Virus record (IMG/VR): IMGVR_UViG_3300044960_000212
Location: 1 to 51,318 of that record
DNA length: 51,318 nucleotides
DNA from: a virus
Reading direction: 5' to 3' (one strand)
Each line of letters opens with the position of its first letter. Within the stretch, counting starts at the first letter, position 1. The notes beneath the pieces are model-generated. The model ran no database searches, was not told the origin of the DNA, and worked only from the letters and a program-made list of their open reading frames with translations. This document shows positions 12,319 to 49,773 of this stretch, one piece after another. The translations under genes were made by a program, and so were the position numbers.

Positions 12319-12381
12319 GCCTGTTCCAGCCTGTTCCCATGCTGTTTTACAGGATGGATTTCGACCGCGCCGGCCTGTTCC
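12319..12381 (+). repeat. Three GCCTGTTCC direct repeats before the portal gene
   Basis: GCCTGTTCC occurs at 12319-12327, 12329-12337 and 12373-12381, with a small palindrome CTGT-TTT-ACAG at 12342-12352 between them. The third copy lies in the spacer of the putative late promoter. The block occupies the only sizeable gap between terminase and portal. It could be an activator site or a packaging (pac/cos) element; I cannot tell which. Confidence 0.5.
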
Positions 12382-12389
12382 GCGACCGT
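12357..12389 (+). promoter_or_regulatory. Putative late promoter, portal gene
   Basis: GATT-TCGACCGC occupies 12357-12368, followed by 15 bp and the -10-like GACCGT at 12384-12389. The portal ATG is 9 nt after the -10, three more than at the five other copies of this motif. The predicted transcript would have a leader of at most a few bases. Confidence 0.6.
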
Positions 12390-12398
12390 GTGGAATAG

Positions 12399-13868
12399 AT
12401 GGCGAACAAGGGCTCGTTCAAGCCGGGGCAAAGCGGCAACCCGAAGGGCCGTCCGCGGAAGCTGGAGCGCCGCGACGGCTGGATCAACGAGGCCTCCGGC
12501 CACGGAACCGCCTACGACCGGCGACTGCTGACGCGGTACGGCGTCGACATCGTCACCGATCTCGAGGCGATTCAGCTGTGGCGGTCGGAGTGGCTCTGCG
12601 CGCGCGTCATCGAGACGCGCCCCCGCGAGGCGTTCCGGCGCGGCTACGAGCTCAAGCTCGACGACAAGGAGATCGCGGAGAAGGTCGTCGCGAAGGCCGA
12701 GGAACTCGGCGTCGACGCCGCGCTGGTGAAGGCCGGGCAGTATCGCCGCGCATATGGCGGCGCCGCGATCTTCCCGGTGCTCGACGGCGCGCTCGGCGAT
12801 CTTTCGGAGCCGCTCGACGAGACCAGGATCGCCGACGTCAAGGCGCTGCACGTCCTCGAGCCGCGGCAGCTGCAGCCGGTCAGCTACTACACGGACCTCT
12901 CGCATCCGAAGTTCGGGCAGCCCGAGATCTGGCGCTTCATGCCGCTTGTCGCGAGCCGCGCGGCTGGTGCATGGGGTCAGCTAATCCACGAGTCGCGGCT
13001 CGTGATCTTTCCGGGAACGCGCGTCTCGGTGCAGACGCAGCCCGGGCAGCGCGAGGGCTGGGGCGACTCGGAACTGTCAAAGCCGTACGCCGCGATCCGC
13101 GACTACGGCCTGTCGTGGGGCAGCGCGACGACGATCCTCCACAACTTCGGACGCGACGTGCTGCAGTTCGACGGCTGGGCCGAACTCGCCGCCCAGGCCG
13201 ACGGCGGCGAAGAGATCATGGCGAAGCGCATGCGCGCGTTCGAGATCGCCAACTCGACGCTGCGGGTCGGCGTGATCGACGCCAAGGACCGGTTCACGCC
13301 GCGCGGAGGTTCGCTCGCCGGGCTCTCGGACGTGCTGATCCAGCAAGCGCAGTACGTCGCGGCGGCGACCGAGCACCCGGTGACGGTGCTGATGGGGATG
13401 TCGCCGGCGGGTCTCAATGCGACCGGCGACATGGACGTGCGCAACTGGTACGCCACGATCGAGAACGACCAGGCGACCGAGTACAAGCCGCGCGTCGAGC
13501 AGATCTACCGTCTCTTGCTGTTGGCGTCGGCCGGGCCAACGCGGGGCAAGGAGCCCAAGGCGTGGTCCGTCGAGTTTCGTCCGCTCCTGACGCCGAGCGA
13601 AAAGGAGCAGGCAGAGACGCGCAAGATCGTCGCCGAGACGGACAAGATCTACTTCGACATCGGTGCGGCGAGCCCCGAGGACATCGCGACGTCGCGGTGG
13701 AAGGGTGACACGTACTCGCCCGAGATGGTGATCGACTGGAAGGCGCGCGAGGAACAGGCGAAGCTCGACGAGGAACGCGCCGCTGATCTCGACGACGCCG
13801 CGCTCGAGGCGATGGGACGCGTGGCCCGGACCGAGGAGCAGCCGACTGAGCGGCCCGAGGTGGCCTGA
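12399..13868 (+). CDS. Portal protein, DUF1073-type
   Basis: This 489-residue protein matches DUF1073-type portals: VIETRPREAFRRGYEL, then YRRAYGGAAIF, ESRLVIFPG, a WGDSELSKPY segment, and LMGMSPAGLNATGDMDVRNWY, which is characteristic of the family. It forms the dodecameric DNA gate at the capsid vertex. An unusual addition is the extreme N-terminus, SFKPGQSGNPKGRP, shared with the putative small terminase. ATG 12399 directly follows a TAG and lacks a strong Shine-Dalgarno, consistent with leaderless initiation from the promoter at 12357-12389. Its stop overlaps the next start. Confidence 0.88.
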   Translation: MANKGSFKPGQSGNPKGRPRKLERRDGWINEASGHGTAYDRRLLTRYGVDIVTDLEAIQLWRSEWLCARVIETRPREAFRRGYELKLDDKEIAEKVVAKAEELGVDAALVKAGQYRRAYGGAAIFPVLDGALGDLSEPLDETRIADVKALHVLEPRQLQPVSYYTDLSHPKFGQPEIWRFMPLVASRAAGAWGQLIHESRLVIFPGTRVSVQTQPGQREGWGDSELSKPYAAIRDYGLSWGSATTILHNFGRDVLQFDGWAELAAQADGGEEIMAKRMRAFEIANSTLRVGVIDAKDRFTPRGGSLAGLSDVLIQQAQYVAAATEHPVTVLMGMSPAGLNATGDMDVRNWYATIENDQATEYKPRVEQIYRLLLLASAGPTRGKEPKAWSVEFRPLLTPSEKEQAETRKIVAETDKIYFDIGAASPEDIATSRWKGDTYSPEMVIDWKAREEQAKLDEERAADLDDAALEAMGRVARTEEQPTERPEVA

Positions 13869-15679
13869 TGCCGGTTCTGGTCACGGGCGGCGCGGCCAAC
13901 ACCGCGGCCGTCATCCAGCAGTACCGTCGCTCCGGGCTCGCGACCCGACGGCGCCGGATGCCGCGGTTCCGGTGGCCGACGCTCATCGAGGTCGAGTACG
14001 CGAAGGCGATCGCGCGGATCGTCGACGTGCGCGACGAGATCGCTCCGCTGCTCGACGAGTTGCCTCGTCTGCTCGAGCGTGCCGCGAGCGCGCGCGGTCA
14101 AGTCCGGCGCGACGAGGGTGAGGCGCGGCGCGCTCGCGACCTCATGGATCGCGCGCGGCGCGCCTTGGACCGGTCGATGAACGTGGTCGAGCTCGAGCGG
14201 CTGGCCGGGCAGATGGGTCAGCGGATCAGCGATCACCATCGCGCCGAGCTGCGCCGGCAGGTCCAGGCCGCGATCGGCGTCGATCTGGTCACGCTCGATC
14301 GCCGCGTGCCGGCGCTGATCGACGACTTCGTCGGCGAGAACGTCACGCTGATCCGCTCGCTCGGGAACAAGACGCTCGACGACGTGAACAAGATCGTGTC
14401 GCGCGCGTTCACCCGCGGCGAGCGGGCCGAGAACGTCGCAGGCGAGATCGCGGAACGGTACGGCATCTCCGAGCGCCACGCGCGTCTCATCGCGCGCGAC
14501 CAGATTGGCACGCTCACCGGCCAGATCACGGCAGCGCGCCACCAGGAGCTCGGGCTGACGCAGTTCACGTGGCGCTCGATGAACGACCAGCGCGTGCGAC
14601 CCGAGCACCGCGAGCTGGACGGCAAAGTGTTCGACTACGATGACCCGCCCGGCGAGGGACTTCCGGGCGAGCCGATCAACTGCCGTTGCTACCAGGAGCC
14701 GATCTTCGACGAGATCGACAAGCTCCTCGGTGACGATGGCCCGTCGACACCACCGGCGCCGTCTCCCGCCGCACCAACACCGCGTCGCCCTCGCCGAGCT
14801 CCAGTTCCGGCCGCGCCGAGGCGATCGCGACCGGCTCCAGTCCCTCCGGCACCGACACCGCCCGCTCCGCTGCCGACTGCCGCAGACCGAACCGTCCATG
14901 CGATGGCCGATGGCGACCTGCCCACGGCGCGCCGCGAGATCGAGACGGACCTGGCCGGGCGCAGCTTCGCGCGGCGGGCCTGGGTGACCGACGCATCGAC
15001 GACCACCGTTGCCAAGCTGCCCCCGAAGGTCCTCGGCGATCACATGCCCGGAAGTGGCAACGTCCGTATCGCCGCCGGGGCCGCGCGCGACGGACAGGCG
15101 TTCGCAAAGGCATGGCGCCGGAATCCGGCAAAGGTGCGCGCTGCGATCGCGGACTTCCAGAAGCATCGCGACGACTTCCTCGCCGGTCGGCGCAGCGATC
15201 CGCCCGACCCGAAGAGCGACGGCGCGAGGCTGATCCGGCAGGCGACGCGCTATGAGGCGCTGGTCCACGAGACACTGCACGGCTACGGCCGCGTGCCGGC
15301 GCTCGGCTTCAAGAACCCGATCCACCTCCGCATCGAGGAGATCACGACCGAGAGTGCGGCGCGCAAGCTCATGCGCGACCAGTTCGGCGTGGATCTTCGC
15401 GGCGCACCTGGTCGCGGACAGGAATACGCCTACGGCTACGAGATGTGGCTGCACCAGACCGCGCGCGGCATCTCCACCGCCACCGGCGTAGACTTCGATC
15501 GCGCGTGGAACGTGATGCTCGAGGCGTCCGAGGACTTCAAGCGGAGCGCCGTCGTGGACCGCGACACCGAGCAGACGTTCGCCGACCTCGTGCACCAGCG
15601 ACTCGGTGGACGCACGACGGCCACACCGCAACAGATCCAGGCCGCGATCAGGGCGTCGTGGTCGGCGCCGATGCCGTAG
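13868..15679 (+). CDS. Head morphogenesis protein (MuF/SPP1 gp7-like) fused to an HExxH domain
   Basis: Residues 1-285 form a phage Mu F/SPP1 gp7-type head protein, ending with the family core ARLIARDQIGTLTGQI, MNDQRVRPEHRELDGKVF and NCRCYQEP. A Pro/Ala-rich linker spans about 290-337. The C-terminal 260 residues carry HETLH at 467-471 (HExxH) followed by E490/E491, the layout of a zinc metallopeptidase. Head proteins of this class are minor capsid components injected or held near the portal in some phages, and fusions to enzymatic domains are known. Target and activity are unknown. ATG 13868 overlaps the portal stop. Confidence 0.85.
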   Translation: MPVLVTGGAANTAAVIQQYRRSGLATRRRRMPRFRWPTLIEVEYAKAIARIVDVRDEIAPLLDELPRLLERAASARGQVRRDEGEARRARDLMDRARRALDRSMNVVELERLAGQMGQRISDHHRAELRRQVQAAIGVDLVTLDRRVPALIDDFVGENVTLIRSLGNKTLDDVNKIVSRAFTRGERAENVAGEIAERYGISERHARLIARDQIGTLTGQITAARHQELGLTQFTWRSMNDQRVRPEHRELDGKVFDYDDPPGEGLPGEPINCRCYQEPIFDEIDKLLGDDGPSTPPAPSPAAPTPRRPRRAPVPAAPRRSRPAPVPPAPTPPAPLPTAADRTVHAMADGDLPTARREIETDLAGRSFARRAWVTDASTTTVAKLPPKVLGDHMPGSGNVRIAAGAARDGQAFAKAWRRNPAKVRAAIADFQKHRDDFLAGRRSDPPDPKSDGARLIRQATRYEALVHETLHGYGRVPALGFKNPIHLRIEEITTESAARKLMRDQFGVDLRGAPGRGQEYAYGYEMWLHQTARGISTATGVDFDRAWNVMLEASEDFKRSAVVDRDTEQTFADLVHQRLGGRTTATPQQIQAAIRASWSAPMP

Positions 15680-15884
15680 CGCGAGGCGGCCGTGGCGTCT
15701 CGCCGCGATCGGCGATGTCCCACGACGCCATGAGCCGCTCGAGCTCGGCGCGGTCGTCGACCATCCACAACATGCTCGCCGCCTCGTCCGCGTCGACCCC
15801 GTACTGCTCGTAGAAGCGCACGAGCGCCGGGATGTCATTGGGCGGAAGTGCGAGGAATGCCGCCTCGCGCGTGGGAGCTGGCAT
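15648..15884 (-). CDS. Opposite-strand small hypothetical protein (moron)
   Basis: A 78-residue frame runs against the head operon, with its 3' end overlapping the head morphogenesis gene by 32 bp. The sequence has helical, acidic segments (FYEQYGVDADEAASMLW, DDRAELERLMASWDIA) and a Thr/Pro tail, and reads like a real folded protein rather than a shadow. A weak TAGACT hexamer lies seven bases upstream of its ATG. Function unknown; an isolated reversed gene among head genes is typical of lysogen-expressed morons. Confidence 0.6.
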   Translation of the reverse strand: MPAPTREAAFLALPPNDIPALVRFYEQYGVDADEAASMLWMVDDRAELERLMASWDIADRGETPRPPRATASAPTTTP

Positions 15885-15922
15885 CGGCGGAAGTCTAGCG
15901 CATCGCGCCAGGCGGTAAGCGG

Positions 15923-15955
15923 CAATTCGACCGCACACGCCGGGCTCCGTAGCGT
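15923..15955 (+). promoter_or_regulatory. Putative late promoter, protease/scaffold gene
   Basis: CAAT-TCGACCGC at 15923-15934, 15 bp spacer, TAGCGT at 15950-15955, then exactly six bases to GTG 15962. Read as a sigma70-type promoter this is -35 TCGACC, a 17-bp spacer and -10 TAGCGT, giving a leaderless mRNA. Confidence 0.65.
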
Positions 15956-15961
15956 TGGGTC

Positions 15962-17335
15962 GTGGCCAAGGCATTCCGTGTCGATCATGGCAGCCTCCGC
16001 AAGCCGTCGCGGACGCCGCAGGGATTTCTCCGCGTCGACGGCTACGCGAGCCGCATCGGCGTGTTCGAGTACCTGAACGAGGACGGATCGATCCGTCGCG
16101 AGCTGCGCCTTCCCGAGGAGGTGTTTCGCGAGGACGCGCTCGCAGGCTTCGAGGGCGCACCGCTCACCGACGGGCATCCGCCGGTCATGGTCACCGCCGA
16201 GAACGTCGCCCAGTACGAAAAGGGCACGGTCACGGCGAGGGCGTGGCGCGACGGAGATTTCGTCGTCACCTCGATCGTCATCAAGGACCCGAAGCTGATC
16301 CGCAAGGTCGAGCGGGGCGACACGGGGTTGTCGGTCGGCTACTCGGTCGACCTCGACGAGACGCCGGGCGTGCATCCGCAGTTCGGCCGGTACGACGCGA
16401 TCCAGCGCAACCTTGTGATCAACCACCTCGCCGCAGCGGTCACGCCCCGCGCCGGCAATGCGGCGCGAATCCGCATGGACGGCGCCGCCGAGCAGCGCGC
16501 CGACGGACTCGCTCGCCTGACCAGCTCGGTCGACGGTCATCAGCACCTAATCGACCTGCAGCACGACTACGGACCCGGCATGAGCGGGCAATCGGGCTGC
16601 ACCTCGTGGGCTGTGGCCGAGGGCGCCGACGTGGGCCACGAGCATCCGTGGGTGCGGGCACCGGACGGCACGATCACGATCGGCGAAGCAGCCGGGCACA
16701 CGCACACGATTCTCGACGAAACCCGCTACGCGGCGCCGCGAGCGGACCAGCAAATCGACCGCGATCGCGCAGTCAAGGAGAGTGGTGCCATGAAGACGCC
16801 CGAAGAACTTCAGGCTCGCATCGACGAGCTCGGCGGCGAGAACAAGACGCTCAAGGCGAGGATCGCCGAGCTCGAGGCGCTGATCGCAACGAACGCGACA
16901 GCCGCCGAGAGCGAGGCGGTCAAGAAGGAGAAGCAGCGCGCCGATGAGGCCGAGGCCAAGGTCAAGCGCTTCGATGAGACCTTCGCCACAGCGGTGCGCG
17001 CGCGCGCCAAGCTCGAGCGCGAGGCCGGCCGGATCATGGGCGCCGAGTTCCGCATGGACGACATGACGGACCGCGCGATCCACGAAGCCGTCGTCAAGCG
17101 CCTCGACGCGAGCACGGACGTCAAGAGCGTCTCCGACGCCGAGCTGCGCGGCCAGTACAACACGCTTGTCGCGCTCGCAGCGAAGAACGTCGAGAGCCAG
17201 CAGCGCGTCGGCGAGATCATGTCGCGGACGCGCGAGACCGAGCGCAAGGACGAGGGCGAGTCGTACGAGGAGTACGAGAAGAACCGGTGGAAGACCACCC
17301 TCAAGAACGGCCGCGACGCGGCGGAAGGGCGATAA
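15962..17335 (+). CDS. Capsid maturation protease fused to scaffold, DUF2213
   Basis: The 457-residue protein has an N-terminal DUF2213 region: GFLRVDGYASRIGVFEY, PLTDGHPPVMV, and GLSVGYSVDL followed by INHLAAAVTPRAG, the His/Ser-containing core of this prohead-protease family. Residues 185-262 form an insert with His-rich GHQHLI and AGHTHTIL. From residue 277 on it is a long charged coiled coil typical of scaffolds. GTG 15962 lies six bases after the -10 of a late promoter. The scaffold part can also start internally at 16790. Confidence 0.82.
   Translation: MAKAFRVDHGSLRKPSRTPQGFLRVDGYASRIGVFEYLNEDGSIRRELRLPEEVFREDALAGFEGAPLTDGHPPVMVTAENVAQYEKGTVTARAWRDGDFVVTSIVIKDPKLIRKVERGDTGLSVGYSVDLDETPGVHPQFGRYDAIQRNLVINHLAAAVTPRAGNAARIRMDGAAEQRADGLARLTSSVDGHQHLIDLQHDYGPGMSGQSGCTSWAVAEGADVGHEHPWVRAPDGTITIGEAAGHTHTILDETRYAAPRADQQIDRDRAVKESGAMKTPEELQARIDELGGENKTLKARIAELEALIATNATAAESEAVKKEKQRADEAEAKVKRFDETFATAVRARAKLEREAGRIMGAEFRMDDMTDRAIHEAVVKRLDASTDVKSVSDAELRGQYNTLVALAAKNVESQQRVGEIMSRTRETERKDEGESYEEYEKNRWKTTLKNGRDAAEGR
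16751..16783 (+). promoter_or_regulatory. Putative internal late promoter for nested scaffold
   Basis: Inside the protease gene, CAAA-TCGACCGC at 16751-16762 is followed by 15 bp, GAGAGT at 16778-16783 and six bases to an in-frame ATG at 16790. The spacing is identical to the intergenic copies, which argues that it is a working promoter and not a coding coincidence. Confidence 0.62.
16790..17335 (+). CDS. Nested in-frame scaffold protein
   Basis: ATG 16790 is codon 277 of the protease-scaffold gene and would give a 181-residue product starting MKTPEELQARIDEL. It is an almost continuous charged coiled coil, as expected for a scaffold assembled in excess over the protease, as with lambda C and Nu3. 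The start has both a copy of the late promoter motif ending six bases upstream and a Shine-Dalgarno AAGGAG at 16775-16780 usable on the long transcript. Both forms end at the same TAA. Confidence 0.65.
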   Translation: MKTPEELQARIDELGGENKTLKARIAELEALIATNATAAESEAVKKEKQRADEAEAKVKRFDETFATAVRARAKLEREAGRIMGAEFRMDDMTDRAIHEAVVKRLDASTDVKSVSDAELRGQYNTLVALAAKNVESQQRVGEIMSRTRETERKDEGESYEEYEKNRWKTTLKNGRDAAEGR

Positions 17336-17338
17336 GCC

Positions 17339-17905
17339 ATGCAGACCGAAGTTCTCAGCGCACCCCTTATCGGCTCGCCCGGCGATATCGCCGACCTCTA
17401 CACGGCGACCGACGGCGACATCAAGACCGCGATCAACGCCGAGGCGGCCAACCCGATCGTGGTCGGCACGATGGTCAAGCGCGGCACGACCGAGCGATCG
17501 ATGCTTCGCATCGCGGCGCAGGCCGACAAGGCGAGCGCGCTCGGCATCGTCACGCGCGGCCATCACCTCTCCGAGAAGGAGATCACAAAGCTCGCCGTGG
17601 GCACGGCCGAGCTCGAGGCGCTCACGCCGGACACCCCGGCGGGCGTCGGCCGCACCGGCGACTACGTGGTCCTGATCGAGGAGGACGTCGACGTCGGCGA
17701 TCCGGTGCGCGTCCGCTGCGTCGCGGGCCCGGGCGAGGTCGCGGGCGCGTTCCTCACGAGCCAGGACGCAACCGACTGCATCCTCCTGCCCTCGGACGCG
17801 TTCTGGTGGGTCAAGGGCGGCGCGGTCGATCCCGACACCGGCTTCGGCGTGGCGGTCCTGCACGTCGAGATGAACCACATCGCCCGCGCCACGAACGACG
17901 TGTAA
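17339..17905 (+). CDS. Capsid cement/decoration-type structural protein
   Basis: The 188-residue protein lies between scaffold and major capsid gene, the usual place for a decoration or Gp24-like cement protein. It is rich in beta-type segments: PIVVGTMVKRGT, ALGIVTRGHHLS, TGDYVVLIEEDVDVGDPVRVR and a GVAVLHVEMNHI C-terminus, matching proteins that precede DUF2184 capsids. It probably binds the capsid surface and stabilises it after expansion. Confidence 0.65.
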   Translation: MQTEVLSAPLIGSPGDIADLYTATDGDIKTAINAEAANPIVVGTMVKRGTTERSMLRIAAQADKASALGIVTRGHHLSEKEITKLAVGTAELEALTPDTPAGVGRTGDYVVLIEEDVDVGDPVRVRCVAGPGEVAGAFLTSQDATDCILLPSDAFWWVKGGAVDPDTGFGVAVLHVEMNHIARATNDV

Positions 17906-17916
17906 GGAGCACGGCC

Positions 17917-18867
17917 ATGAAGCACAAAGTCAACGACCCGCGTCTCGACTCCGCGACGACCGTGTTCCTCGAGCGCGAGCTCACGTCGGTCGATCCGAAG
18001 AAGTACATGGAGCTCTTCGCCGGACTCAAGGCGACGAGCTTCGTACCGCCGATCCAGGGCATCGCACCGTACGATCGCTCCTACGAGTACTCGATGTGGA
18101 GCATCACGGGCGAGGCCGCCACGTACGGCGACAACGCTCGCGATCTGCCGCGCGTCGGTGTCAAGCGGACGCCGTACACGCGCCGCATCACCCCGATCGG
18201 CGCATCCTACGGCTGGACTGTCGACGATATCCGCGCTGCGGCGGCCAAGGGGGTTCCGCTCGACGATGTCACCGTGATCGCGGCGATGTCGACGATCAAG
18301 CGCAAGCTCGACCGGCGGATCGCGCTCGGCGACGCAGAGCTCGGCTACACGGGCCTGCTCAACGATCCGGTCATTCTCGCCAACAATTCGGTGGCGCCCG
18401 TCAATGCATTCGCGACCGCGGCCGACAAGCTCGCGAGCCTGAACAAGCTCGTCGCCGAGACTCGGCTGCGCCTCAAGCAGGCGACCGAGTCGCCCGACGG
18501 CGAGGGCATCCCGGCGTTCGACCAGTTCCAGGTGCTGCTGCCGACGGAGGACTACGCGTTCATCAAGCAGACCCCGGCGAGCGCGAACTATCCGCAGTCC
18601 ATCCTCGATGTCTTCCTCGCGAACAACCGCGAGTGGGTCTCGGGCGTGTCGGAGTGGTCGTATCTCGACGGCATCGATGCAGGCGAGGGCCGCGCGGTGT
18701 GCTACCCGCTCAACCCCGCAGCGCTCGGTCACGCGACCGCGCGCTACTACACCGAGGAGCCGCCGCAGGCCAACGGCCTGAACATCGACGTTCCGTGCCA
18801 CGCGGCGTCGGGCGGCACGGTGATTCGGTACGCGGTGGCGTTCAGCTACATGAAGCTGGGCGCGTAG
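17917..18867 (+). CDS. Major capsid protein, DUF2184 type
   Basis: This 316-residue protein follows a strong TAAGGAG (17903-17909). Features of DUF2184 capsids are visible: FLERELTSVDPKKYMELFAG at the N-terminus, YEYSMWSITGEA, GASYGWTVDDIRAA, NDPVILAN, and a C-terminal VIRYAVAFSYMKLG. It should form the HK97-fold shell. A tRNA-like gene follows directly, before the next structural gene. Confidence 0.85.
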   Translation: MKHKVNDPRLDSATTVFLERELTSVDPKKYMELFAGLKATSFVPPIQGIAPYDRSYEYSMWSITGEAATYGDNARDLPRVGVKRTPYTRRITPIGASYGWTVDDIRAAAAKGVPLDDVTVIAAMSTIKRKLDRRIALGDAELGYTGLLNDPVILANNSVAPVNAFATAADKLASLNKLVAETRLRLKQATESPDGEGIPAFDQFQVLLPTEDYAFIKQTPASANYPQSILDVFLANNREWVSGVSEWSYLDGIDAGEGRAVCYPLNPAALGHATARYYTEEPPQANGLNIDVPCHAASGGTVIRYAVAFSYMKLGA

Positions 18868-18922
18868 CGATCTTCGTACGCCGGACGAGCCGGCCAAGCC
18901 GCAGCGGAGTGCTGCGGCGCCT

Positions 18923-18993
18923 TGCGGGCGAGGGAGACAGCAACCCGGGTGGCTCATACCCACCAGAACCAGGTGCAATTCCTGGGTCCGCGA
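18923..18993 (+). tRNA. tRNA-Met-like gene (anticodon CAT), minimal D-arm
   Basis: The 71 nt fold as a cloverleaf. The acceptor stem TGCGGGC (18923-18929) pairs with GTCCGCG (18986-18992), with two wobble-type pairs. The anticodon arm is GGTGG-CTCATAC-CCACC (18948-18964) with CAT at 18955-18957. The T-arm is CCAGG-TGCAATT-CCTGG (18969-18985), differing from the canonical loop mainly at position 55. The D-arm is short (GGG/CCC, loop of 9) and lacks the usual GG. CCA is not encoded (CGA follows discriminator A). It is embedded between the capsid gene and ATG 18996. It lacks the run of three G:C anticodon-stem pairs of initiators. CAT could also be modified to read Ile AUA. Confidence 0.7.
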
Positions 18994-18995
18994 CG

Positions 18996-19250
18996 ATGGG
19001 TTACCGATACTGGAACGGCACCGAGTGGGTTCGCATCTCTGCGGCCGAGGCGGCTGTGCGCCGCCAGCGCGGCGATCGCGTAATCGAGCGCCCGGATCCG
19101 GTCGAAGCGCCCGTCTCCGCCGCGCCGCATGCGGCAGCGACCCTGCCCGGGTCTTTGGAGTCGGGCGACATCTCGCTCGATGACCTCGACGATGACCAGC
19201 TCGCCGAGCTCGAGAAGCTGACCGCGCCGGGCGCGACCAGCGGGGGCTGA
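18996..19250 (+). CDS. Small acidic hypothetical protein
   Basis: The 84-residue frame starts three bases after the tRNA-like 3' end. It begins with a WNGTEWVRI strand, then a helix, and ends in an acidic helix with DISLDDLDDDQLAELEKL. Such short proteins often occur between capsid and connector genes. ATG 18996 has no clear Shine-Dalgarno because the tRNA T-arm and acceptor occupy that position, so processing of the tRNA would remove its leader. Confidence 0.65.
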   Translation: MGYRYWNGTEWVRISAAEAAVRRQRGDRVIERPDPVEAPVSAAPHAAATLPGSLESGDISLDDLDDDQLAELEKLTAPGATSGG

Positions 19251-19252
19251 TC

Positions 19253-20444: not shown

Positions 20445-20477
20445 CAAATCGACCGCCCAAGACGTCGTCGATAGCGT
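20445..20477 (+). promoter_or_regulatory. Putative late promoter, tail genes
   Basis: CAAA-TCGACCGC at 20445-20456, 15 bp, TAGCGT at 20472-20477, six bases, GTG 20484. The 12-mer and hexamer differ from the 15923 copy by only one base, although the spacer between them is unrelated. Confidence 0.66.
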
Positions 20478-20483
20478 CGCAGT

Positions 20484-21056
20484 GTGCCCGCCATCGCCTG
20501 GTCGACGATCGAGGACGCGCTGCACGCGTGGGTGCGGACGGCGTCGGGCCTCGCCGCGGACCACGTGATCTGGGTGGACCAAGGTGGGCCGCGTCCCGAC
20601 GGGACGTACATCGCAATGCGGCTCGCCTCGCTGCGCACAATCGGGGACGAGTGGATCACGACCGAGGACGCGCCCGATCCGCAGCCGGGCGCCGAGCTCC
20701 TGCGCAAGGTGCGCGGGCATCGAGTCGTGACGCTCGGGCTCCAGTGTTTCGCGGACGCGACCACGGCCTCGAAGGTGCTCGCGGACGTGATCGCCGGCAT
20801 CGCGCTCCACGCCGAATCGCTCGACATCGCAGGTATCGGCATCGGTCCGATCAGCGCGATGACGCGCATCGATCAGGGCGGCGCGGGAGGCCTGCTCAAG
20901 TCGCGAGCGGCCGTCGACGTCGACCTGCACCTGAGCTCGGAGGTCAGCGACTTCGTCACGTTCATCGAGCGCGTCCATGTCACCACGACTGCGAAGAACC
21001 CGGCGGGCGACGAGTTCGTGCTTGAGACGTGGATCCCCAACCCGCCGCCCCCCTGA
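20484..21056 (+). CDS. Neck/tail terminator-like protein
   Basis: The 190-residue protein begins WSTIEDALHAWVRTASGLAADHVIW and includes RVVTLGLQCFADATTASKVLADVIAG, similar to phage neck-terminator (gp12-like) proteins that cap the tail tube. It is placed just before the sheath gene. GTG 20484 has no Shine-Dalgarno and lies six bases after the promoter -10, so leaderless translation is likely. Confidence 0.65.
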   Translation: MPAIAWSTIEDALHAWVRTASGLAADHVIWVDQGGPRPDGTYIAMRLASLRTIGDEWITTEDAPDPQPGAELLRKVRGHRVVTLGLQCFADATTASKVLADVIAGIALHAESLDIAGIGIGPISAMTRIDQGGAGGLLKSRAAVDVDLHLSSEVSDFVTFIERVHVTTTAKNPAGDEFVLETWIPNPPPP

Positions 21057-21065
21057 GGAGAAGCC

Positions 21066-22712: not shown

Positions 22713-22722
22713 AGGAGCCACG

Positions 22723-23803: not shown

Positions 23804-23805
23804 CC

Positions 23806-26306: not shown

Positions 26307-26309
26307 CCC

Positions 26310-26684: not shown

Positions 26685-27556
26685 TGGCGCGCCTGTTCCG
26701 CAAGACGTGGAAGGTGGTCATCGCGGCGCAGCCGACGGGCTTCGTCGGCCAGAATCCGCAGTTCTTCGAGACGCTCGGGAATGCCGTCGAGATCGTCGAC
26801 ATGCGCGTGGCCTTCTCGGTAACGAAGAACCTCGGCAAGGAGCCGAACAAGTGCAGCCTGCAGCTGTACAACCTGAACGACCACACGCGCGGGATGCTCG
26901 AGCGTACGCCGGTCAGGATATGGCTCCACGGCGGCTACGATGGCGCCGCGCGCCTGCTGTTCACCGGAGATCTCCGGTTCTCGCACACGCGCATCGACGG
27001 GTCCGATGTTGTCACGTCGGTCGAGGTGCGCGACGGGATGCGTGCCTTCGCGCATGCGCGCATGACCCGCAGCTACAAACCGCCGATCCGTGTGAGTCAG
27101 GTGCTCGGCGATGCCGCCGCCTCCATGGGTTTGACGCTGCCTCCCGAGATCGAGCGCAGCCCCGAGCTGAAGCAAGCGCTCGCGACTGGCATCTCGATGC
27201 ACGGGCCGACGCGCGACATCCTCACGCGGCTACTTGCTCCGTACGGCTACAGCTGGTCGATCCAGGATGGTACCTTGGTCGTGCTCGCCGACGGAAAGCT
27301 CCGGCCTGGCGAGGCGATCCTCGTCAACGAAGCGACCGGGCTCGTCGGCTCACCCGAGCGCAGCGTCCCTGACAAACCAGGCGCGCGGGCGAGCGTGTCG
27401 TTCGAGACGCTGCTCTACCCGGAGATCGCGCCGGGGATGGCCGTGAAGCTCGAGAGCCGCTTCATCAACGGCGTGTTCCGGGTCAAGGAGGTCGGGCACG
27501 AGGGCGACAGCCACGATGGCGAGTGGAAAACCACCGTGAAGGCAGACCCGACATGA
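26684..27556 (+). CDS. Baseplate hub protein (gpD/gp27-like)
   Basis: The 290-residue protein shows hub-type features: NAVEIVDMRVAFSVTKNLGKEPNKCSL, LFTGDLRFSHTRIDGSDVV, GPTRDILTRLLAPYGYSWSIQDG and a C-terminal RFINGVFRVKEVGHEGDSHDGEW, where the HxGDxHxGxW-like end is typical. It should form the trimeric hub that carries the spike. GTG 26684 overlaps the plug gene stop. Confidence 0.78.
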   Translation: MARLFRKTWKVVIAAQPTGFVGQNPQFFETLGNAVEIVDMRVAFSVTKNLGKEPNKCSLQLYNLNDHTRGMLERTPVRIWLHGGYDGAARLLFTGDLRFSHTRIDGSDVVTSVEVRDGMRAFAHARMTRSYKPPIRVSQVLGDAAASMGLTLPPEIERSPELKQALATGISMHGPTRDILTRLLAPYGYSWSIQDGTLVVLADGKLRPGEAILVNEATGLVGSPERSVPDKPGARASVSFETLLYPEIAPGMAVKLESRFINGVFRVKEVGHEGDSHDGEWKTTVKADPT

Positions 27557-28245
27557 CCGAGGAGCCAGAGACCCCCGAATGGGAAGCGATCATCCGCATC
27601 GCGCTGCAGGGCGCGCTGGCCGGAGTCAGGACGACGCTGCCCGGCAAGATTACAGCCTACGACGCGACCAAGCAGATGGCCTCGGTGCAGCCGCTGATCC
27701 GCGAGGCGCGTGTGGACGAGACCGGTGTGGAGCGCTACGAGGATCTGCCGCAGCTCCATAGCGTGCCGGTGATGTTCGTCGGCCCGCCGGTCGGTCGCAT
27801 CACGTGGCCGGTCCGTGTCGGCGATCTGTGCGCGCTGTGGTTCGCAAGCTCGTCCCTCGATCAGTGGATCCTCCGCGGCACGACGAGCACCGTCGATCCG
27901 CGCGACGCTCGGCACCACGACATCAACGACGCGATCGCGATGGTCGGGCTGCACAGCCCCGGCGCGCCGCCGACGCCGGCGCCGACCGACGCGATCGTGC
28001 ACCACGCTGGCGCCGGAGTCGCCATCAAGCTCGGCGGGCCCGACGCGAACCACGCGCTCGCGCTGCAGGGCGTGATCGACCAGCTGAACGCGGCGATTGA
28101 CACGGCGTCAGCGGCCGTAGGCGCGCCCGCGAATGCCTGGGGCATTGCGCTGCGCACCGCGCTGAGCAACCTCGGCTGGCCGGTTCCGCCCAATACCGGG
28201 CCGTGGTCGAGCTCGACCATCTCCACGAAGGTCAAGGCGAAGTAG
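27553..28245 (+). CDS. Baseplate spike protein, Gp138-like OB-fold
   Basis: The 230-residue protein has the Gp138-type membrane-puncturing N-terminus: GVRTTLPGKITAYDATKQMASVQPLIRE, VPVMFVGPPVGRITWPVRVGDLCALWFAS and a HHDINDAIAMVGLHS segment. The C-terminal 60 residues look like a short beta-helix or helical tip. ATG 27553 overlaps the hub stop. It would pierce the outer membrane on contraction. Confidence 0.8.
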   Translation: MTEEPETPEWEAIIRIALQGALAGVRTTLPGKITAYDATKQMASVQPLIREARVDETGVERYEDLPQLHSVPVMFVGPPVGRITWPVRVGDLCALWFASSSLDQWILRGTTSTVDPRDARHHDINDAIAMVGLHSPGAPPTPAPTDAIVHHAGAGVAIKLGGPDANHALALQGVIDQLNAAIDTASAAVGAPANAWGIALRTALSNLGWPVPPNTGPWSSSTISTKVKAK

Positions 28246-28264
28246 CCCCAGTCTCGGTCCCGGC

Positions 28265-28297
28265 TATCTCGACCGTCGCCGTCGCTGCCGGCACGCT
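28265..28297 (+). promoter_or_regulatory. Putative late promoter, baseplate wedge genes
   Basis: TATC-TCGACCGT at 28265-28276, 15 bp, CACGCT at 28292-28297, six bases, GTG 28304. The upstream A-run seen at other copies is replaced by TATC, making this the most divergent member, but the spacing is exact. Confidence 0.5.
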
Positions 28298-28303
28298 GGC
28301 ATC

Positions 28304-28687
28304 GTGCTCGAGTCGGACCCGATCGATCTGCTCTTCGACGCGGACGGCGACCTCGCGATCGGCCCGGACGGCGGGTTTCAGTTCGCGTCGGGACTCGCCG
28401 GCGTGGCGCAGGCGGTGCGCGTCCGTCTGCTCATGTTCCGCGAGGAGTGGTTCCTCAACCTCGACGCCGGCGTGCCCTGGTACCAGGAGATCCTCGGCGA
28501 GAAGGTCGACGATTCGCTCCTGCGCCAGCGGATCATCGAGGCTGTCGCTGCAACACCGGGCGTCGTCGAGATCTTGACGCTCACCATTGCTCGGGACACG
28601 GCGACACGACGCATCGCCATCACGATCGCCGTCCGCACCGTGTTCGGCGACACCGAGCCCGACACACTCACCATCGGAGGCAGCTGA
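28304..28687 (+). CDS. Baseplate wedge protein, gp25/gpW-like
   Basis: The 127-residue protein follows the gp25-like pattern: DLLFDADGDLAIGPDGGFQFASGLAGVAQAVRVRLLMFREEWFLN, then LDAGVPWYQEILGEKVDD and a beta C-terminus. The lysozyme-like wedge protein initiates baseplate assembly with the gpJ-like neighbour. GTG 28304 is the first start in frame and lies six bases after a promoter -10. Confidence 0.78.
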   Translation: MLESDPIDLLFDADGDLAIGPDGGFQFASGLAGVAQAVRVRLLMFREEWFLNLDAGVPWYQEILGEKVDDSLLRQRIIEAVAATPGVVEILTLTIARDTATRRIAITIAVRTVFGDTEPDTLTIGGS

Positions 28688-28688
28688 G

Positions 28689-30029
28689 ATGCCCGATTAC
28701 GGAGTGCTGCCCGAAGGCTTCCGTCCGCAGACGATCGCCGAGGTACGGGAGGAGCTCGAGGAGGAGCTCCGCCAGAAGTTCGGTCGCAGCTTCCCGCTCG
28801 GTGATTACACGTTCGCGGGCCACGTCGTCGGGACCCTCGCCGAGCGTCTCGGCTTGCTGTGGGAAGTCGCGGAGCTGACCTATGCAGCGATGGACCCGGA
28901 CAAGGCGTCCGGCGATGCGCTGCGCGCGCTCGGCCTGCTGACCGGCACGTTCGAGGACGAGCCGAGCGCGTCGGTCGTCGAGGCGGTGCTCACCGGCGAC
29001 GACGCGACCGTGGTGCCGCAGGGCAGCCTGGCAGCCAACAGCGTCGGCCGACGGTTCAGCCTCACCGAGCTGACAACGCTGGTGCAGGCTAATGCATGGG
29101 CGGCATCGACGGCGTACGAGCTCGGCGATCGCGTGACCAACGCGTCGCGCGTCTATCAGTGCATCACGGCCGGAGTGAGCGCTGGCGCCGGCGGGCCGAT
29201 AGACTCGATCGACGACGAGACCGACGGCACCGTGCACTGGCAGTACCTCGGCGAGGGAGAGGCGGTGGCGGACGCCGTGTTCGCATGCGTCGACACGGGC
29301 CCGGTGGAGTGCGTCGCGGGCGATCTCACCAGCATCGAGACGCCCGTCGGCGGCTGGTCGAGCGTGACCAACCTGGTCGACGCCGTGCTCGGCCGCGACG
29401 TGCAGACCGACGAGAGCTTCCGGCTGAAGCGCGAGGCGGAGCTCCACCAGCCCGGCACCGGCCCGTACGAGGCGGTTCGCGCGGCGCTGCTCGCGGTCGA
29501 GGGCGTGACGAGCGTGTCGATCCTGTTCAACGCGAGCGACACGACCGACGTGAACGGACTGCCGCCGCACTCGTTCGAGGCGCTCGTCCGCGGCGGCGAG
29601 GACCAGGACATTCGGCAAGCGATCTGGGCGAACAGTCCGCTCGGCATCGAGACCTACGGGTCGACGAGCGGCACCGTGCTCGACTCCGAGGGACGGCTGC
29701 AAACGATCCGGTTCTCTCGCCCGACCGAGAAGCTCATCCACGCGAAGATCACGCTCCAGAAGAACCCACGCGAGTACGTCGGGGACGAAAGCGTCAAGCT
29801 CGAGGTCGCGACGCGAGGCGACCTGCTCGGGCTCGGGCATGACGTGTTCTCGTCGGCCGTCGCTGCGTGGTCGTTCGTCGGGGGCGTGCTCAACGTGACC
29901 GAGGTGCTCATCTCGGTAGACCCGGTGAATCCGCCGGTGTCCTCGGCCACGCTCGTGATGGGCGTGCGCGACATGCCCCTCTTCGACACGTCTCGCGTGA
30001 CGGTCGTCAGCTCGGACGTGACGCCATGA
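28689..30029 (+). CDS. Baseplate J-like protein with inserted carbohydrate-binding-like module
   Basis: The 446-residue protein begins PDYGVLPEGFRPQTIAEVREELEEELRQKFG, the standard baseplate J start, and later has GPYEAVRAALLAVEGVTSVSILFN and PHSFEALVRGGEDQDIRQAIWANSPLGIETYGS. Residues 137-188 (WAASTAYELGDRV, VYQCITAGVS, HWQYLG) form an insert resembling chitin-binding type 3/CBM5-12 modules. Such an insert could contact surface sugars. It forms the wedge ring of the baseplate. Confidence 0.85.
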   Translation: MPDYGVLPEGFRPQTIAEVREELEEELRQKFGRSFPLGDYTFAGHVVGTLAERLGLLWEVAELTYAAMDPDKASGDALRALGLLTGTFEDEPSASVVEAVLTGDDATVVPQGSLAANSVGRRFSLTELTTLVQANAWAASTAYELGDRVTNASRVYQCITAGVSAGAGGPIDSIDDETDGTVHWQYLGEGEAVADAVFACVDTGPVECVAGDLTSIETPVGGWSSVTNLVDAVLGRDVQTDESFRLKREAELHQPGTGPYEAVRAALLAVEGVTSVSILFNASDTTDVNGLPPHSFEALVRGGEDQDIRQAIWANSPLGIETYGSTSGTVLDSEGRLQTIRFSRPTEKLIHAKITLQKNPREYVGDESVKLEVATRGDLLGLGHDVFSSAVAAWSFVGGVLNVTEVLISVDPVNPPVSSATLVMGVRDMPLFDTSRVTVVSSDVTP

Positions 30030-30067
30030 TGGTTCGCATCTTCACGTTCTTCGACGGAGCGCCCTGA
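30026..30067 (+). CDS. Thirteen-residue mini-ORF bridging two genes
   Basis: ATG 30026 overlaps the gpJ-like stop and the frame (MMVRIFTFFDGAP) ends in a TGA overlapping ATG 30067 of the next gene. It may only carry ribosomes from one gene to the next by termination-reinitiation. It is too short to argue for a functional product. Confidence 0.3.
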   Translation: MMVRIFTFFDGAP

Positions 30068-31188
30068 TGACCGCACCGCAACTCTCCAAGGCTTGGACGA
30101 TCACGCCGAACCTGCGCCGCGCATTCGTGTCGCTCGTCGATACGGCGTCGTGGTGCATGTACCAGAACAAGGTGGCGCTCGTCGCGCGCGGGTGGACGAC
30201 GGTGTACTCGTGCAACGGCGTCGCCGGGCCGGCCGACGCCAACGATCACACCGATCGCATGACGAGCGAGGCTGCATTCGGGGTCCGTTCCGCGGTCGCC
30301 GCTGGCGCGCAGTCGTTTTGGATCGGCGAGAACGCCGATGGCGTGCAGATCATGTTCGCGTACCTCGGTGCAACCGACGACGTGTTCCGCATCTCGTTCT
30401 CTCCGGGCGGCCTGTTCACGCTGGCGTCGCCGACGACACACCTACCAACCGCGAGCGACGAGATGGTCGTGTCGTCGGGCAACTCGATCGTGAACGCGAC
30501 GACGAGCATGGCTCGCGTGATGTCGATTTGGGCGAGCAATGATACGCGTCACTGGTCGTTCATCATATTCCGCAACAACGCATTGCTCAACTACATCGCA
30601 ATCGAGCGCATCAACAACCTTTGTTTCCCCGCGACGATCTTTGGCGACGGGACCAACGAGATCCCGTATGTCGGAGTCCGCAACACGGTGCTCGACAGGA
30701 CCGGCGCGCTCGGCCGAATCCTCGATACGCGATCGAACACCGCATTGGGAGCGGCGGGTTGGGTTGGACAAGCCGCGCGGGTGTTTACCAACGGCGCCTC
30801 GCGGATCAATCAGATCGGCGGTGGCCGGTTGTTCGGTCCGCAGAACAACGGCACCGTAAACGGTGGTGGGCCATTGAGCATCACTACAACATTCACGGCT
30901 AACGTCCCTGCGCTGCAAGGTGGCGTCGGCGGCGGTTCGCCGTTGCTCCCCATCTACTGGTTCGGTGAGCGCGTAGCGAACCTAGACGGGCTGCTCGGCT
31001 ACCCGATCGATTGGTGGCAGATGTACACGAACAGCGAAACCGTGCCGAGTCTCAACGACTTCGTGCCCGGCTACGATCCAGGCGACACGCCCGGGGTGTC
31101 GCCGCTGCGTACCAACTGGCTGATCGCGCTCGGCGCCGCGTGCGTGCGCCCGTGGCGTAACGCGGCTGCATTGTTGGAGACGATCTAA
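30067..31188 (+). CDS. Putative tail-tip/receptor-contact structural protein
   Basis: The 373-residue protein is Gly/Asn/Ser-rich and beta-type, with AFVSLVDTASWCMYQNKVALVARGWTTVYSCNG near the start and FGDGTNEIPYVGVRNTVLDRTGALGRIL in the middle. The DNA here looks less strictly GC-biased than its neighbours, often seen in exposed host-range proteins. It sits among baseplate genes. I do not recognise a family; a host-contact role is inference from position. Confidence 0.6.
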   Translation: MTAPQLSKAWTITPNLRRAFVSLVDTASWCMYQNKVALVARGWTTVYSCNGVAGPADANDHTDRMTSEAAFGVRSAVAAGAQSFWIGENADGVQIMFAYLGATDDVFRISFSPGGLFTLASPTTHLPTASDEMVVSSGNSIVNATTSMARVMSIWASNDTRHWSFIIFRNNALLNYIAIERINNLCFPATIFGDGTNEIPYVGVRNTVLDRTGALGRILDTRSNTALGAAGWVGQAARVFTNGASRINQIGGGRLFGPQNNGTVNGGGPLSITTTFTANVPALQGGVGGGSPLLPIYWFGERVANLDGLLGYPIDWWQMYTNSETVPSLNDFVPGYDPGDTPGVSPLRTNWLIALGAACVRPWRNAAALLETI

Positions 31189-31730
31189 TGGCCGAGCGTG
31201 AGGCAGCAGTCGTTCCGGGGTTCGCGCTCTACGCGGGGCTCACGCCGCACGTGTACCCAGGCGCGCGCATCCCGTTCGATTACCAGCACGGATACCAAGA
31301 CGGGCTCGCTGCCCAGCCGCCGCCCGACTCGACCCCGCCGACGATCGCGATCGTCTCGCCCACGCCCGGCGCCGCACCTGGGACGCCCGGGGGCTTCCCG
31401 CGTTCTCGCGAGCTCGCGGAGCAGACGCCCGTCGTGCTCCGAATCTACGACGTCACCCCGGGGCTCGGGTATGTCTCGCTGAGCGTCGTCGTGCCCACGC
31501 TCGTAGACGGTGTGCTGCGCGACGTCGAGGAGGTCGTGTTCCGTCGTGGGCAGTTCCGCGGCCGGCACATTCGCGGCTCCACGCAGCGGATCGTCATCGA
31601 GACGATCGGCGGCATTCCCACCGAGGTACTCGAGCTCAGCGTGCGCCGCGAAGGCGGCTGGCCGCGCGTCACCAACCTGCGGTTCTTCGCGGACGCCATC
31701 GACGCGTCCGGAAATGTCGAGGGAGCGTGA
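31188..31730 (+). CDS. Putative baseplate/tail structural protein
   Basis: The 180-residue protein has a Pro-rich stretch (residues 44-70) followed by a beta sandwich-like part: TPVVLRIYDVTPGLGYVSLSVVVPTL and RREGGWPRVTNLRFFADAIDASGNVEG. It may be an Ig-like domain. ATG 31188 overlaps the upstream stop TAA and its stop overlaps GTG 31727. Confidence 0.6.
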   Translation: MAEREAAVVPGFALYAGLTPHVYPGARIPFDYQHGYQDGLAAQPPPDSTPPTIAIVSPTPGAAPGTPGGFPRSRELAEQTPVVLRIYDVTPGLGYVSLSVVVPTLVDGVLRDVEEVVFRRGQFRGRHIRGSTQRIVIETIGGIPTEVLELSVRREGGWPRVTNLRFFADAIDASGNVEGA

Positions 31731-32401
31731 GCGAGATCGTCCTCGAGCTGCCGCCGTTCCTCGCCGAGACGCCGCCGGCCGCGCCGCCGGCTCCCGCGGA
31801 GATCGATCACGCGAGCGCCGCAGCCGACCGGCTCATCCAGCAGTTCCGCAAGCCGCGGATGATCGACTTCGTGCGCGCGCTGTGCAAGCCGATGGCGGCG
31901 CTCGAGCGTGCGTTCTTCGACATTCTCTCAGCGCGCGTCATCGCCACGGCCTCCGGCGATGCGCTCCGCCAGCTCGCCAACCTCGTCGGTCAGCCGGTGC
32001 TCGCTGGGCTGAGCGACGTCGATCTGCGACGGTACGTGCGCGCGCGAATCCTCGCGAATCGATCCAGCGGTCTCGGCGAGGATCTGATCGCGATCACCAG
32101 ACTCGTCGTCAACGACGAGAGCACGTCGATCCATGCGTTCACCGCCCGCGGCGGCACAGCGTACATCCGCCTCGAGCACAACCCAACCGACTTCGACATC
32201 GGCACCATCCTGTTCCGCGACTTCCTCGCGCGCGCCGTCGCGGTGGGCGTGAAGATCCAGCTCGAGTGGTGGCCCGCGGAGGAGAGCGAGATGTTCGAGT
32301 TCGAGACGTTCACGCCGGGCGAGGGCGCTGGGCTCGGGTGGGGCAGCACGCTCGACGCGAACGTCGGCGGCGCGATGGCATCGATCATTTCCAACGCTTG
32401 A
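31727..32401 (+). CDS. Tail protein I-like/DUF2612-type baseplate protein
   Basis: The 224-residue protein contains FRKPRMIDFVRALCKPMAALERAFFDILSARVI, then ASGDALRQLANLVGQPVLAGLSDVDLRRYVRARILANRSSG, the arrangement of DUF2612/tail protein I-type baseplate components lying after gpJ. A Pro-rich N-terminus precedes it. It probably attaches fibres to the baseplate periphery. Confidence 0.7.
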   Translation: MSEIVLELPPFLAETPPAAPPAPAEIDHASAAADRLIQQFRKPRMIDFVRALCKPMAALERAFFDILSARVIATASGDALRQLANLVGQPVLAGLSDVDLRRYVRARILANRSSGLGEDLIAITRLVVNDESTSIHAFTARGGTAYIRLEHNPTDFDIGTILFRDFLARAVAVGVKIQLEWWPAEESEMFEFETFTPGEGAGLGWGSTLDANVGGAMASIISNA

Positions 32402-32411
32402 CGAGGACGAC

Positions 32412-33188
32412 ATGCCGAAGCCAACCGAAATCGCCCCGTGGGCAACCAACGCGAACTACCCCAACGACTCCGAGCCCGAGGCGAACACGCCGACGAAAGT
32501 CGAGCCCGACGTCGAGGAGACGATCGGCTGGCGGCCAGGCAAGAAGCCGCCCGCCCAGAAGATGAATTGGTGGCAGAACGTCGTCGGGCAGTGGATTGCC
32601 TATCTCAATGCCGGCGTATGGGAGGACGATCTGCATGTAACCGGCGCGCTCGAGATCGACGGGCCGGCGCTATTCAACAGCACAGCCACGTTCGATACGG
32701 TGGAGGTCGGGAACTACATCGACTCGCCGGACTACTTCTTGTCGGCGCCACGCACGATGCTGATCCCGCCGTCGATGTACATGACGGACAGCGATGGCAC
32801 GAGCCACATCACGTTTTCGTCGACTAGCGCCGATCGTTGGCAGATGGGCAATGGAAACACCAAGACTCTCTGTATCCCTGTGCAGCGAGAGGTGGGTGAT
32901 CGCATCACGGGGTTCACCGTCTACGCATTCAAGCAGAGCGACGCCACGTGCATGCTGAAGGCCGAGCTCGTCCGACGCAACGCTGTCACCGGCGCGCGCA
33001 CGGTGATCGCGACGGCGACGAACAACATCAACAACCCAGGCGCGATCACGCTGACCGCTGTGGGGCTCACCGAAACGTGCTCGACGCCTAACACCTACCT
33101 GGTCGAGGTGACCCAAAACGACGCAACGCCGTCGGGCCCTAACACCATCTTCGCGACGATCGTCACCTACGACCGCCCGTCGCCGTGA
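32412..33188 (+). CDS. Short tail fibre-type protein
   Basis: The 258-residue protein begins with the common fibre attachment pattern: PTKVEPDVEETIGWRPGKKPPAQKMNWWQNVVGQWIAYLN. A beta-repeat stretch (LHVTGALEIDGPALFNSTATFD) and a C-terminal beta domain of about 150 residues follow. It is the last rightward tail gene. The C-terminal domain is a candidate receptor binder. No chaperone gene follows. Confidence 0.7.
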   Translation: MPKPTEIAPWATNANYPNDSEPEANTPTKVEPDVEETIGWRPGKKPPAQKMNWWQNVVGQWIAYLNAGVWEDDLHVTGALEIDGPALFNSTATFDTVEVGNYIDSPDYFLSAPRTMLIPPSMYMTDSDGTSHITFSSTSADRWQMGNGNTKTLCIPVQREVGDRITGFTVYAFKQSDATCMLKAELVRRNAVTGARTVIATATNNINNPGAITLTAVGLTETCSTPNTYLVEVTQNDATPSGPNTIFATIVTYDRPSP

Positions 33189-33194
33189 GGTCGG

Positions 33195-33461
33195 TCAGGG
33201 GTGGGTGGTGACGCATTCTTGCCAGGCCTCCAAGTCCCTCATCCAGGCGTTCCACCGATTGTAGTCGCCTTCGCTCGTGCACACCTGACCGTTGACGATT
33301 GAGACCTGCCAGCCTTGGAATGCTGGCGGTTCACCACAGTCCGCGATGATGGTGGCCCAGATAGGCGGCGGCGTTGCGGCATCTGGGGACGGCGGCGGCG
33401 CGGCGTTGTTCTGGCAGGCGGTGAACAGGAGGGCGGCGGCGATGGCGATCGGTCGGCGCAT
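33195..33461 (-). CDS. Small lipoprotein on the opposite strand
   Basis: The 88-residue protein has a lipoprotein signal (MRRPIAIAAALLFTAC, Cys16), a Pro-rich linker and a short folded part with four further Cys/Trp-rich motifs (IIADCGEPPAFQGW, VCTSEGDYNRWNAWMRDLEAWQECV). It has its own good promoter (33468-33496). Proline-rich small lipoproteins next to lysis genes can be outer-membrane spanins, but reversed orientation with a sigma70-like promoter better suits a lysogen-expressed envelope protein or exclusion factor. Confidence 0.7.
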   Translation of the reverse strand: MRRPIAIAAALLFTACQNNAAPPPSPDAATPPPIWATIIADCGEPPAFQGWQVSIVNGQVCTSEGDYNRWNAWMRDLEAWQECVTTHP

Positions 33462-33467
33462 CCGTGC

Positions 33468-33496
33468 ATTGTCGGATCGCCGAGCCGATGCGGCAA
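33468..33496 (-). promoter_or_regulatory. Sigma70-like leaderless promoter of the opposite-strand lipoprotein
   Basis: On the minus strand TTGCCG (33496-33491), a 17-bp spacer, GACAAT (33473-33468), then six bases to the ATG at 33461. Both hexamers match consensus at four of six positions. It overlaps no rightward coding frame that I accept. Confidence 0.55.
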
Positions 33497-33524
33497 GGGC
33501 GGCCGTTGGGGCGCCGCGGACGCC

Positions 33525-33557
33525 AAAATCGACCGCTCCAAGCCCGAGCGCGACCCT
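33525..33557 (+). promoter_or_regulatory. Putative late promoter, lysis-region genes
   Basis: AAAA-TCGACCGC at 33525-33536, 15 bp, GACCCT at 33552-33557, six bases, GTG 33564. Together with the reversed lipoprotein promoter next to it, it makes a divergent promoter region. Confidence 0.62.
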
Positions 33558-33563
33558 GGTCGC

Positions 33564-47262: not shown

Positions 47263-47322
47263 TGCAGATCTCCGTGGTGATTCGGTTGAGAGCGACTTGC
47301 GCGCCAGTGGCGCTGCGCTCGG

Positions 47323-48756: not shown

Positions 48757-48762
48757 GCCACC

Positions 48763-49700: not shown

Positions 49701-49737
49701 CGTGGCAGACGCTGTCACGTTCCATGCTGAGCTGCGG

Positions 49738-49767: not shown

Positions 49768-49773
49768 TGGAGG

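Follow-up and report, generated by a model that had tools for sequence, protein, structure and literature searches.

The 51,318-base stretch of viral DNA analyzed here (IMG/VR virus record IMGVR_UViG_3300044960_000212; hereafter the window, or W) carries six copies of the element (A/T)nTCGACCG(C/T)-N15-nAnnnT, each ahead of a gene start. We regard these sites as a co-regulated promoter class for virion genes, in which the host polymerase would use a degenerate −10 together with a phage-class −35 element read by a phage-supplied protein, and we give this reading a probability of about 0.72. W (GC 68%) is a myophage with replication genes at 0.4–9.9 kb, head and tail genes at 9.9–33 kb on the plus strand, and a leftward early region that carries a serine recombinase. 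The same promoter series is present in at least seven other uncultured phages from IMG/VR (G1, G2, G3, G5, G6, G7, and G8). All the phages compared are metagenomic contigs, several of them fragments, and gene starts are the calls of a home-made codon-usage gene finder.

The six copies are located where an earlier, sequence-only reading of the window had placed them (Table 1), its coordinates being 4 nt upstream of ours since it counted in the A/T-rich bases preceding TCGACC. The offsets that it gave are also correct: counted from the first T of TCGACC, the start codon follows at 35 nt in five copies and at 38 nt in the one before the portal gene, and 17 bp separate the two hexamers in all six. 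The gene finder, which is blind to the motif, calls the starts at 12399, 15962, 20484, 28304, and 33564. Bare TCGACC is no evidence because this hexamer is frequent (104 copies in W, both strands together). The long pattern WNTCGACCGY-N15-nAnnnT, in turn, has six matches in W, all preceding genes, compared with 0.17 in dinucleotide shuffles, so the motif does not occur at random positions as often as before genes; when N6-RTG is added, the matches are five compared with 0.00. A weight matrix trained without W places 33529, 28269, 20449, 12361, and 15927 within its eight top window matches, with P6 scoring highest (28.1 bits). A test based on TCGACC at offset 35 from every RTG codon was discarded: it did not single out TCGACC in W and is too noisy in GC-rich DNA, and gene calls and long motifs were used instead. 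The case rests on the long motif, on real gene starts and on what the phages show when compared.

Table 1. Coordinates of the promoter copies and associated features in the window (offset, distance in nt from the first T of the −35 element to the start codon).
Feature	Coordinates	Strand	−35 (first T)	−10	Start codon	Offset	Remarks
P1 (portal)	12358–12401	+	TCGACCGC 12361–12368	GACCGT 12384–12389	ATG 12399	38	predicted leader ~3 nt
P2 (protease-scaffold gene)	15924–15964	+	15927	TAGCGT 15950–15955	GTG 15962	35	
P3 (nested scaffold start within protease open reading frame)	16752–16792	+	16755	GAGAGT 16778–16783	ATG 16790	35	
P4 (190-residue neck/tail-completion-like gene)	20446–20486	+	20449	TAGCGT 20472–20477	GTG 20484	35	
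P5 (baseplate wedge gp25-like, phrog_120)	28266–28306	+	28269	CACGCT 28292–28297	GTG 28304	35	
P6 (129-residue gene of no assigned function)	33526–33566	+	33529	GACCCT 33552–33557	GTG 33564	35	
Early promoter	48754–48791	−	TTGACA	TAAGGT	ATG 48756	35	TTGACA-17-TAAGGT-6-ATG; early control region
Zfp	9334–9933	+					basic, zinc-finger-like CxxC protein; candidate activator
DUF5681 / terminase-small-subunit-like gene	9955–10344	+					PF18932

The relatives were reached by three routes. A search with the major capsid protein identified G1 (3300048839_001250; 64% identity) and G2 (3300046791_000336; 78%), in which the series precedes the portal, protease and nested scaffold genes at offsets of 34, 35, and 35 and of 35, 35, and 35, respectively. 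An IMG/VR scan with AAATCGACCR-N16-SACNNT-N6-RTG found 33 stretches; upon recounting over the whole contigs, 28 records had one site each, G3 (3300044704_000032) had six and the near-copy 3300049435_000076 five, and the reversed-pattern control gave 0 in 30 records. Further DNA-pattern scans led to G5 (3300010403_000347), in which a site precedes the start of the protease homologue by exactly 35 nt. G3 and G5 were thus found by DNA pattern alone, and G6 (G083), G7, and G8 by protein homology alone (see below). About 75 IMG/VR contigs with one pattern match each were taken as chance. G3 has only distant structural homologues in common with the other phages, yet it has the same promoter; likewise, the tail module of G2 is of the G3 type, not of the W or G1 type, and the promoter is present throughout. 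The series is absent from the control phages G033, MW202816, and Mx4, which have 0 gene-proximal TCGACC of this type. Two side observations concern these genomes. In G1 (12023, minus strand, and 12026, plus strand) and G2 (8071, minus, and 8084, plus), back-to-back copies of the element drive divergent genes, the G1 pair overlapping as CGGTCGAAATCGACCG; the leftward genes lie among plus-strand head genes and have no homologue in W. G033, a related phage, contains a strong Sigma70 region 4-like segment at 42049–42135 of its contig (E 1.7e-11), and may use another switch.

Among the gene assignments made in the sequence-only reading, the lysis label for the gene at 33564 is unsupported, as family searches gave no informative match. 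P1 serves a portal of family phrog_146, and P2 a head maturation protease (phrog_530) whose equivalents in G1, G2, G5, G6, G7, and G8 have a site in the same place at offset 35. The scaffold site P3 sits in the protease frame, and the residues encoded at the scaffold sites (IDRDRAVKESGAM, LDRSDAPPEHGDM, and IDQSNRPTETFRM) differ between W, G1, and G2; the DNA motif is therefore conserved despite a changed protein sequence. In G6 the scaffold homologue is called as a separate gene that starts at 16767, and a site of its own is located at 16732, again at offset 35. P3 also has an AAGGAG Shine-Dalgarno sequence at 16775–16780, overlapping the −10, which would be missing from an mRNA begun at the ATG and usable on a read-through mRNA.

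The anatomy of the element was derived from 31 sites compiled from W, G1, G2, and G3. Their consensus is A(A/T)(A/C)TCGACC(G/A)C-N15-(G/C)A(C/G)(C/G)NT, with a spacing of 17 in all and G or C as the first −10 base in 29. Because part of this set was chosen with −10 letters in the pattern, we take as the unbiased figure the count over 46 TCGACC copies of the eight phages that have a called start 30–42 nt downstream, collected with no −10 requirement. A at +24 and T at +28 are found in 40 of these 46, compared with 38 of the 628 other copies (674 in total), and the start is at exactly offset 35 in 29 of the 40 sites having the −10 letters. The series therefore shares with sigma70-type promoters the two hexamers about 17 bp apart and the A at position 2 and T at position 6 of the −10 (40/46), but not the TTGACA-like −35 with a TAnnnT −10, which is found instead in the early promoter at 48791 on the minus strand.

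Shine-Dalgarno sequences precede only 1 of the 40 motif genes, compared with 220 of 495 other genes of the eight phages (Fisher P 1e-8). Five of the six window sites are devoid of one, the exception being the nested scaffold, and at five of the six the −10 ends 5–8 nt before a start that has no Shine-Dalgarno sequence, as in leaderless genes. These patterns support the view that most mRNAs of the class are leaderless. The leaderless starts claimed in the sequence-only reading thus stand for most sites, whereas some sites of the relatives precede leadered genes and the scaffold copy has a usable Shine-Dalgarno sequence.

Which protein could read the element was approached by clustering all called proteins. 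The informative motif phages are the seven that have the terminase region on their contig (W, G1, G2, G5, G6, G7, and G8). Only two families, Zfp and DUF5681, occur in all seven of them and in none of the three controls. Zfp has CxxC motifs and a conserved W..YRGK..RG segment; it belongs to no informative PHROGs, Pfam or NCBIfam family and has no match in 50,697 phage records. A PDB sequence search was likewise without match, and no fold match was obtained, with a model too weak for fold matching (pTM, predicted template modelling score, 0.36). When a profile of four Zfp proteins was the sole query on IMG/VR, three new phages were retrieved (G6, G7, and G8). The prediction that they carry the series, which could have failed, came true in all three: their main strands have 8, 7, and 7 matches, the opposite strands have 0, 1, and 0, and the reversed pattern gives 0–1, these counts including a few likely chance matches. 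In G6, the Zfp gene region is immediately preceded by a site (2487), an arrangement that would fit Zfp autoregulation. A relation of Zfp to GcrA was considered and rejected, as the weak match, seen in one homologue, does not lie in the conserved zinc region and probably reflects composition. W encodes a second basic CxxC-rich protein at 7386–7715, with a layout like that of the N-terminal half of Zfp.

Other candidate readers were sought in the nine phages scanned. Sigma70 region 2 (PF04542) is absent from all of them, with control genomes positive, and Ogr/Delta (PF04606) gave no match above the cut-off, the family being found in the E. coli control. The single-subunit phage RNA polymerase (PF00940) also gave no match in the nine phages, yet its control genome was silent too. 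Neither MotA nor AsiA appeared among the scanned window proteins, although no search aimed at them was made. A phage sigma factor was rejected, since the only Sigma70_r4-like match of W (41282–41401) is the helix-turn-helix of a NUMOD4/HNH endonuclease inserted into a DUF5131 gene. This gene (40805–42199, minus strand) is split in frame by the NUMOD4/HNH endonuclease with no stop codons, and the insertion could be intein-like or a tolerated in-frame homing-endonuclease insertion. A DNA methyltransferase was also rejected as the regulator because it is common to W (407–1615), G1 (4258–5100) and G2 (46716–47666) only. TCGA lies within the promoter element, which methylation could affect.

The strongest competing explanation, which we consider unlikely, is that the sites are read by a factor of the host, either an alternative sigma factor or an activator, which the phages merely exploit, with no phage factor. 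In its favor are a promoter type that outlasts tail-module replacement (the G2 tail genes being shared with G3, not with W or G1) and the G1 site that heads a replication-region gene. On the other hand, apart from DUF5681, only Zfp follows the distribution of the series, and this phage-encoded protein correctly foretold the series in three new phages; furthermore, the early promoters of the same phages are sigma70-like, whereas the −10 of the series retains only the sigma70 key bases. Some observations do weigh against a phage-supplied reader of a late class. A host alternative sigma factor may instead read TCGACC, the transcript starts being predicted from sequence. Zfp is located in the packaging module, so that its co-occurrence with the series may reflect common descent, and the lineages are at most five because G5, G7, and G8 are close relatives. 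Moreover, Zfp falls into no recognised DNA-binding family, its structure model is weak, and G3 has the promoters on a contig that does not cover the region where Zfp would lie. Finally, the replication-region gene of G1 indicates that the class is not purely late; the late label of the sequence-only reading fits the structural genes served, but not this case.

We consider it improbable that host sigma70 reads the sites as ordinary promoters in which TCGACC is a weak variant of the TTGACA −35, repeated through convergence on a strong site. The spacing of 17 and the A2 and T6 of the −10 fit such promoters, and the early promoters have the same geometry. However, the 31 sites conserve the second-position C of the −35 along with its flanking AA and G/A, and the first T of the −10 is missing in 29 of them; ordinary drift would keep the −10. 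The −35 of the early promoters in W and G7 is TTGACA. Similar early promoters with a consensus −35 and leaderless geometry are found in G2 and G7. Because the early promoter of W is leaderless with the same geometry, the late class retains a sigma70 layout with a foreign −35. It also follows that leaderless initiation extends beyond the late class, which is distinguished by the −35 together with the degenerate −10. The early control region of W (48740–49790) has repeated CTTAGTAA and TTACTAAG elements overlapping the TTGACA promoter, beside a helix-turn-helix gene (49774–50031), and is likely a repressor-operator switch.

A translation or RNA-processing signal at a fixed distance from the start codon, as the exact 35 nt of most copies might suggest, is very improbable. 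When the start is displaced (offsets 32, 34, 36, 38, or 53–77 with a Shine-Dalgarno leader), the −10 remains 23 nt from the T; it is therefore tied to the −35 element and not to the start codon, as expected of a promoter and not of a translation signal. Leaders of about 17–41 nt with a Shine-Dalgarno sequence follow the sites at G1 20256 (before the sheath gene), G1 45222, G3 3497, G3 9171, and G2 15871, and the divergent sites of G1 and G2 serve opposite-strand genes. The arrangement proposed in the sequence-only reading (−35, 17 bp, −10, six bases, start) is borne out by this rigid spacing and by the recurrence of the series in seven other phages. Chance or a codon-usage artefact of GC-rich coding DNA, to which the frequency of TCGACC and a crude offset test that is weak in W alone might point, is refuted by the comparison between phages, given the long-motif counts relative to shuffles, the conservation at orthologous genes, the out-of-sample matrix matches and the zero in controls.

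In the promoter reading that we favor, the host RNA polymerase holoenzyme would contact the degenerate −10 at the A2 and T6 that are its two key sigma70 bases, while the element (A)(A/T)nTCGACC(G/A) would stand in for the usual −35 contact and be read by a phage-supplied protein. Transcription would begin about 7 nt past the −10, at or a few bases from the start codon, giving mostly leaderless mRNAs. We infer transcription from the sites and the use of the host polymerase, as well as late timing, the latter because of the genes served. A phage factor, as the sequence-only reading suggested, is probably needed; that this factor is Zfp is a tentative assignment. Slightly more tentative is the proposal that Zfp founds an undescribed family of phage transcription factors which would replace the sigma region 4/−35 contact and redirect the host holoenzyme to AAATCGACCR promoters, forming one dispersed leaderless virion regulon in uncultured phages.

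The element is not described in the literature searched, in which most subscription journals are missing. In T4 middle promoters (MotA box, AsiA sigma appropriation), a phage element replaces the −35 and the −10 is retained (PMC7403470). The series resembles them, by anatomy only, in having a phage element in place of the −35, but it has its element exactly at the −35 position, combined with a degenerate −10, and serves structural genes with leaderless starts. In P2/186, several scattered late promoters share one motif and the regulator is the small Cys-rich zinc protein Ogr/B (PMC3931495). Scattered same-motif promoters and a small phage zinc-type protein, here a candidate only, are common to both systems; however, the TGT-N12-ACA motif of P2/186 does not occur within 60 nt upstream of the six sites, no Ogr_Delta member exceeds the cut-off, and Zfp lacks the CX2CX22CX4C spacing. 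The series thus belongs to neither the T4-middle nor the P2-late type. The Thermus phage P23-45 uses extended −10 promoters for middle and late genes, with gp39 displacing sigma region 4 (PMC7403470); a phage-redirected host RNA polymerase is what we propose here too, but in our case the −35-like element is the most conserved part. Leaderless genes of actinobacteria and Deinococcus-Thermus likewise have a −10 that ends about 6 nt before the start and no Shine-Dalgarno sequence (PMC3898074, PMC3160421, PMC12340547). Those host promoters have TAnnnT, whereas here the conserved −35-like element and the non-T first −10 base mark the phage regulon.

Two further features of the window were noted. 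A small lipoprotein-like gene (11838–12314) lies with the terminase on one side and the portal on the other, and its product has a weak C-terminal match to GspG, a type II secretion pseudopilin. It is perhaps a moron acquired from the host, and such a GspG-like moron is only a hint of a didermal host. When 84,980 genomes were scanned with capsid and portal to identify the host, no relatives were found. The final 216 bases (51103–51318) are similar to the beginning of the primase gene (at 1615), and are either a diverged second copy or an imperfect contig-end overlap.

Taken as a sequence-defined regulon in at least eight uncultured phages, the series allows gene starts, operons and relatives to be found from DNA alone, and the blind pattern scan of IMG/VR did recover two such phages (G3 and G5). 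It also provides, in Zfp, a specific candidate, open to testing, for a late-gene switch of a new kind. Finally, a mostly leader-free late regulon suggests that virion proteins are translated via leaderless initiation, which is rarely seen as a phage-wide rule.

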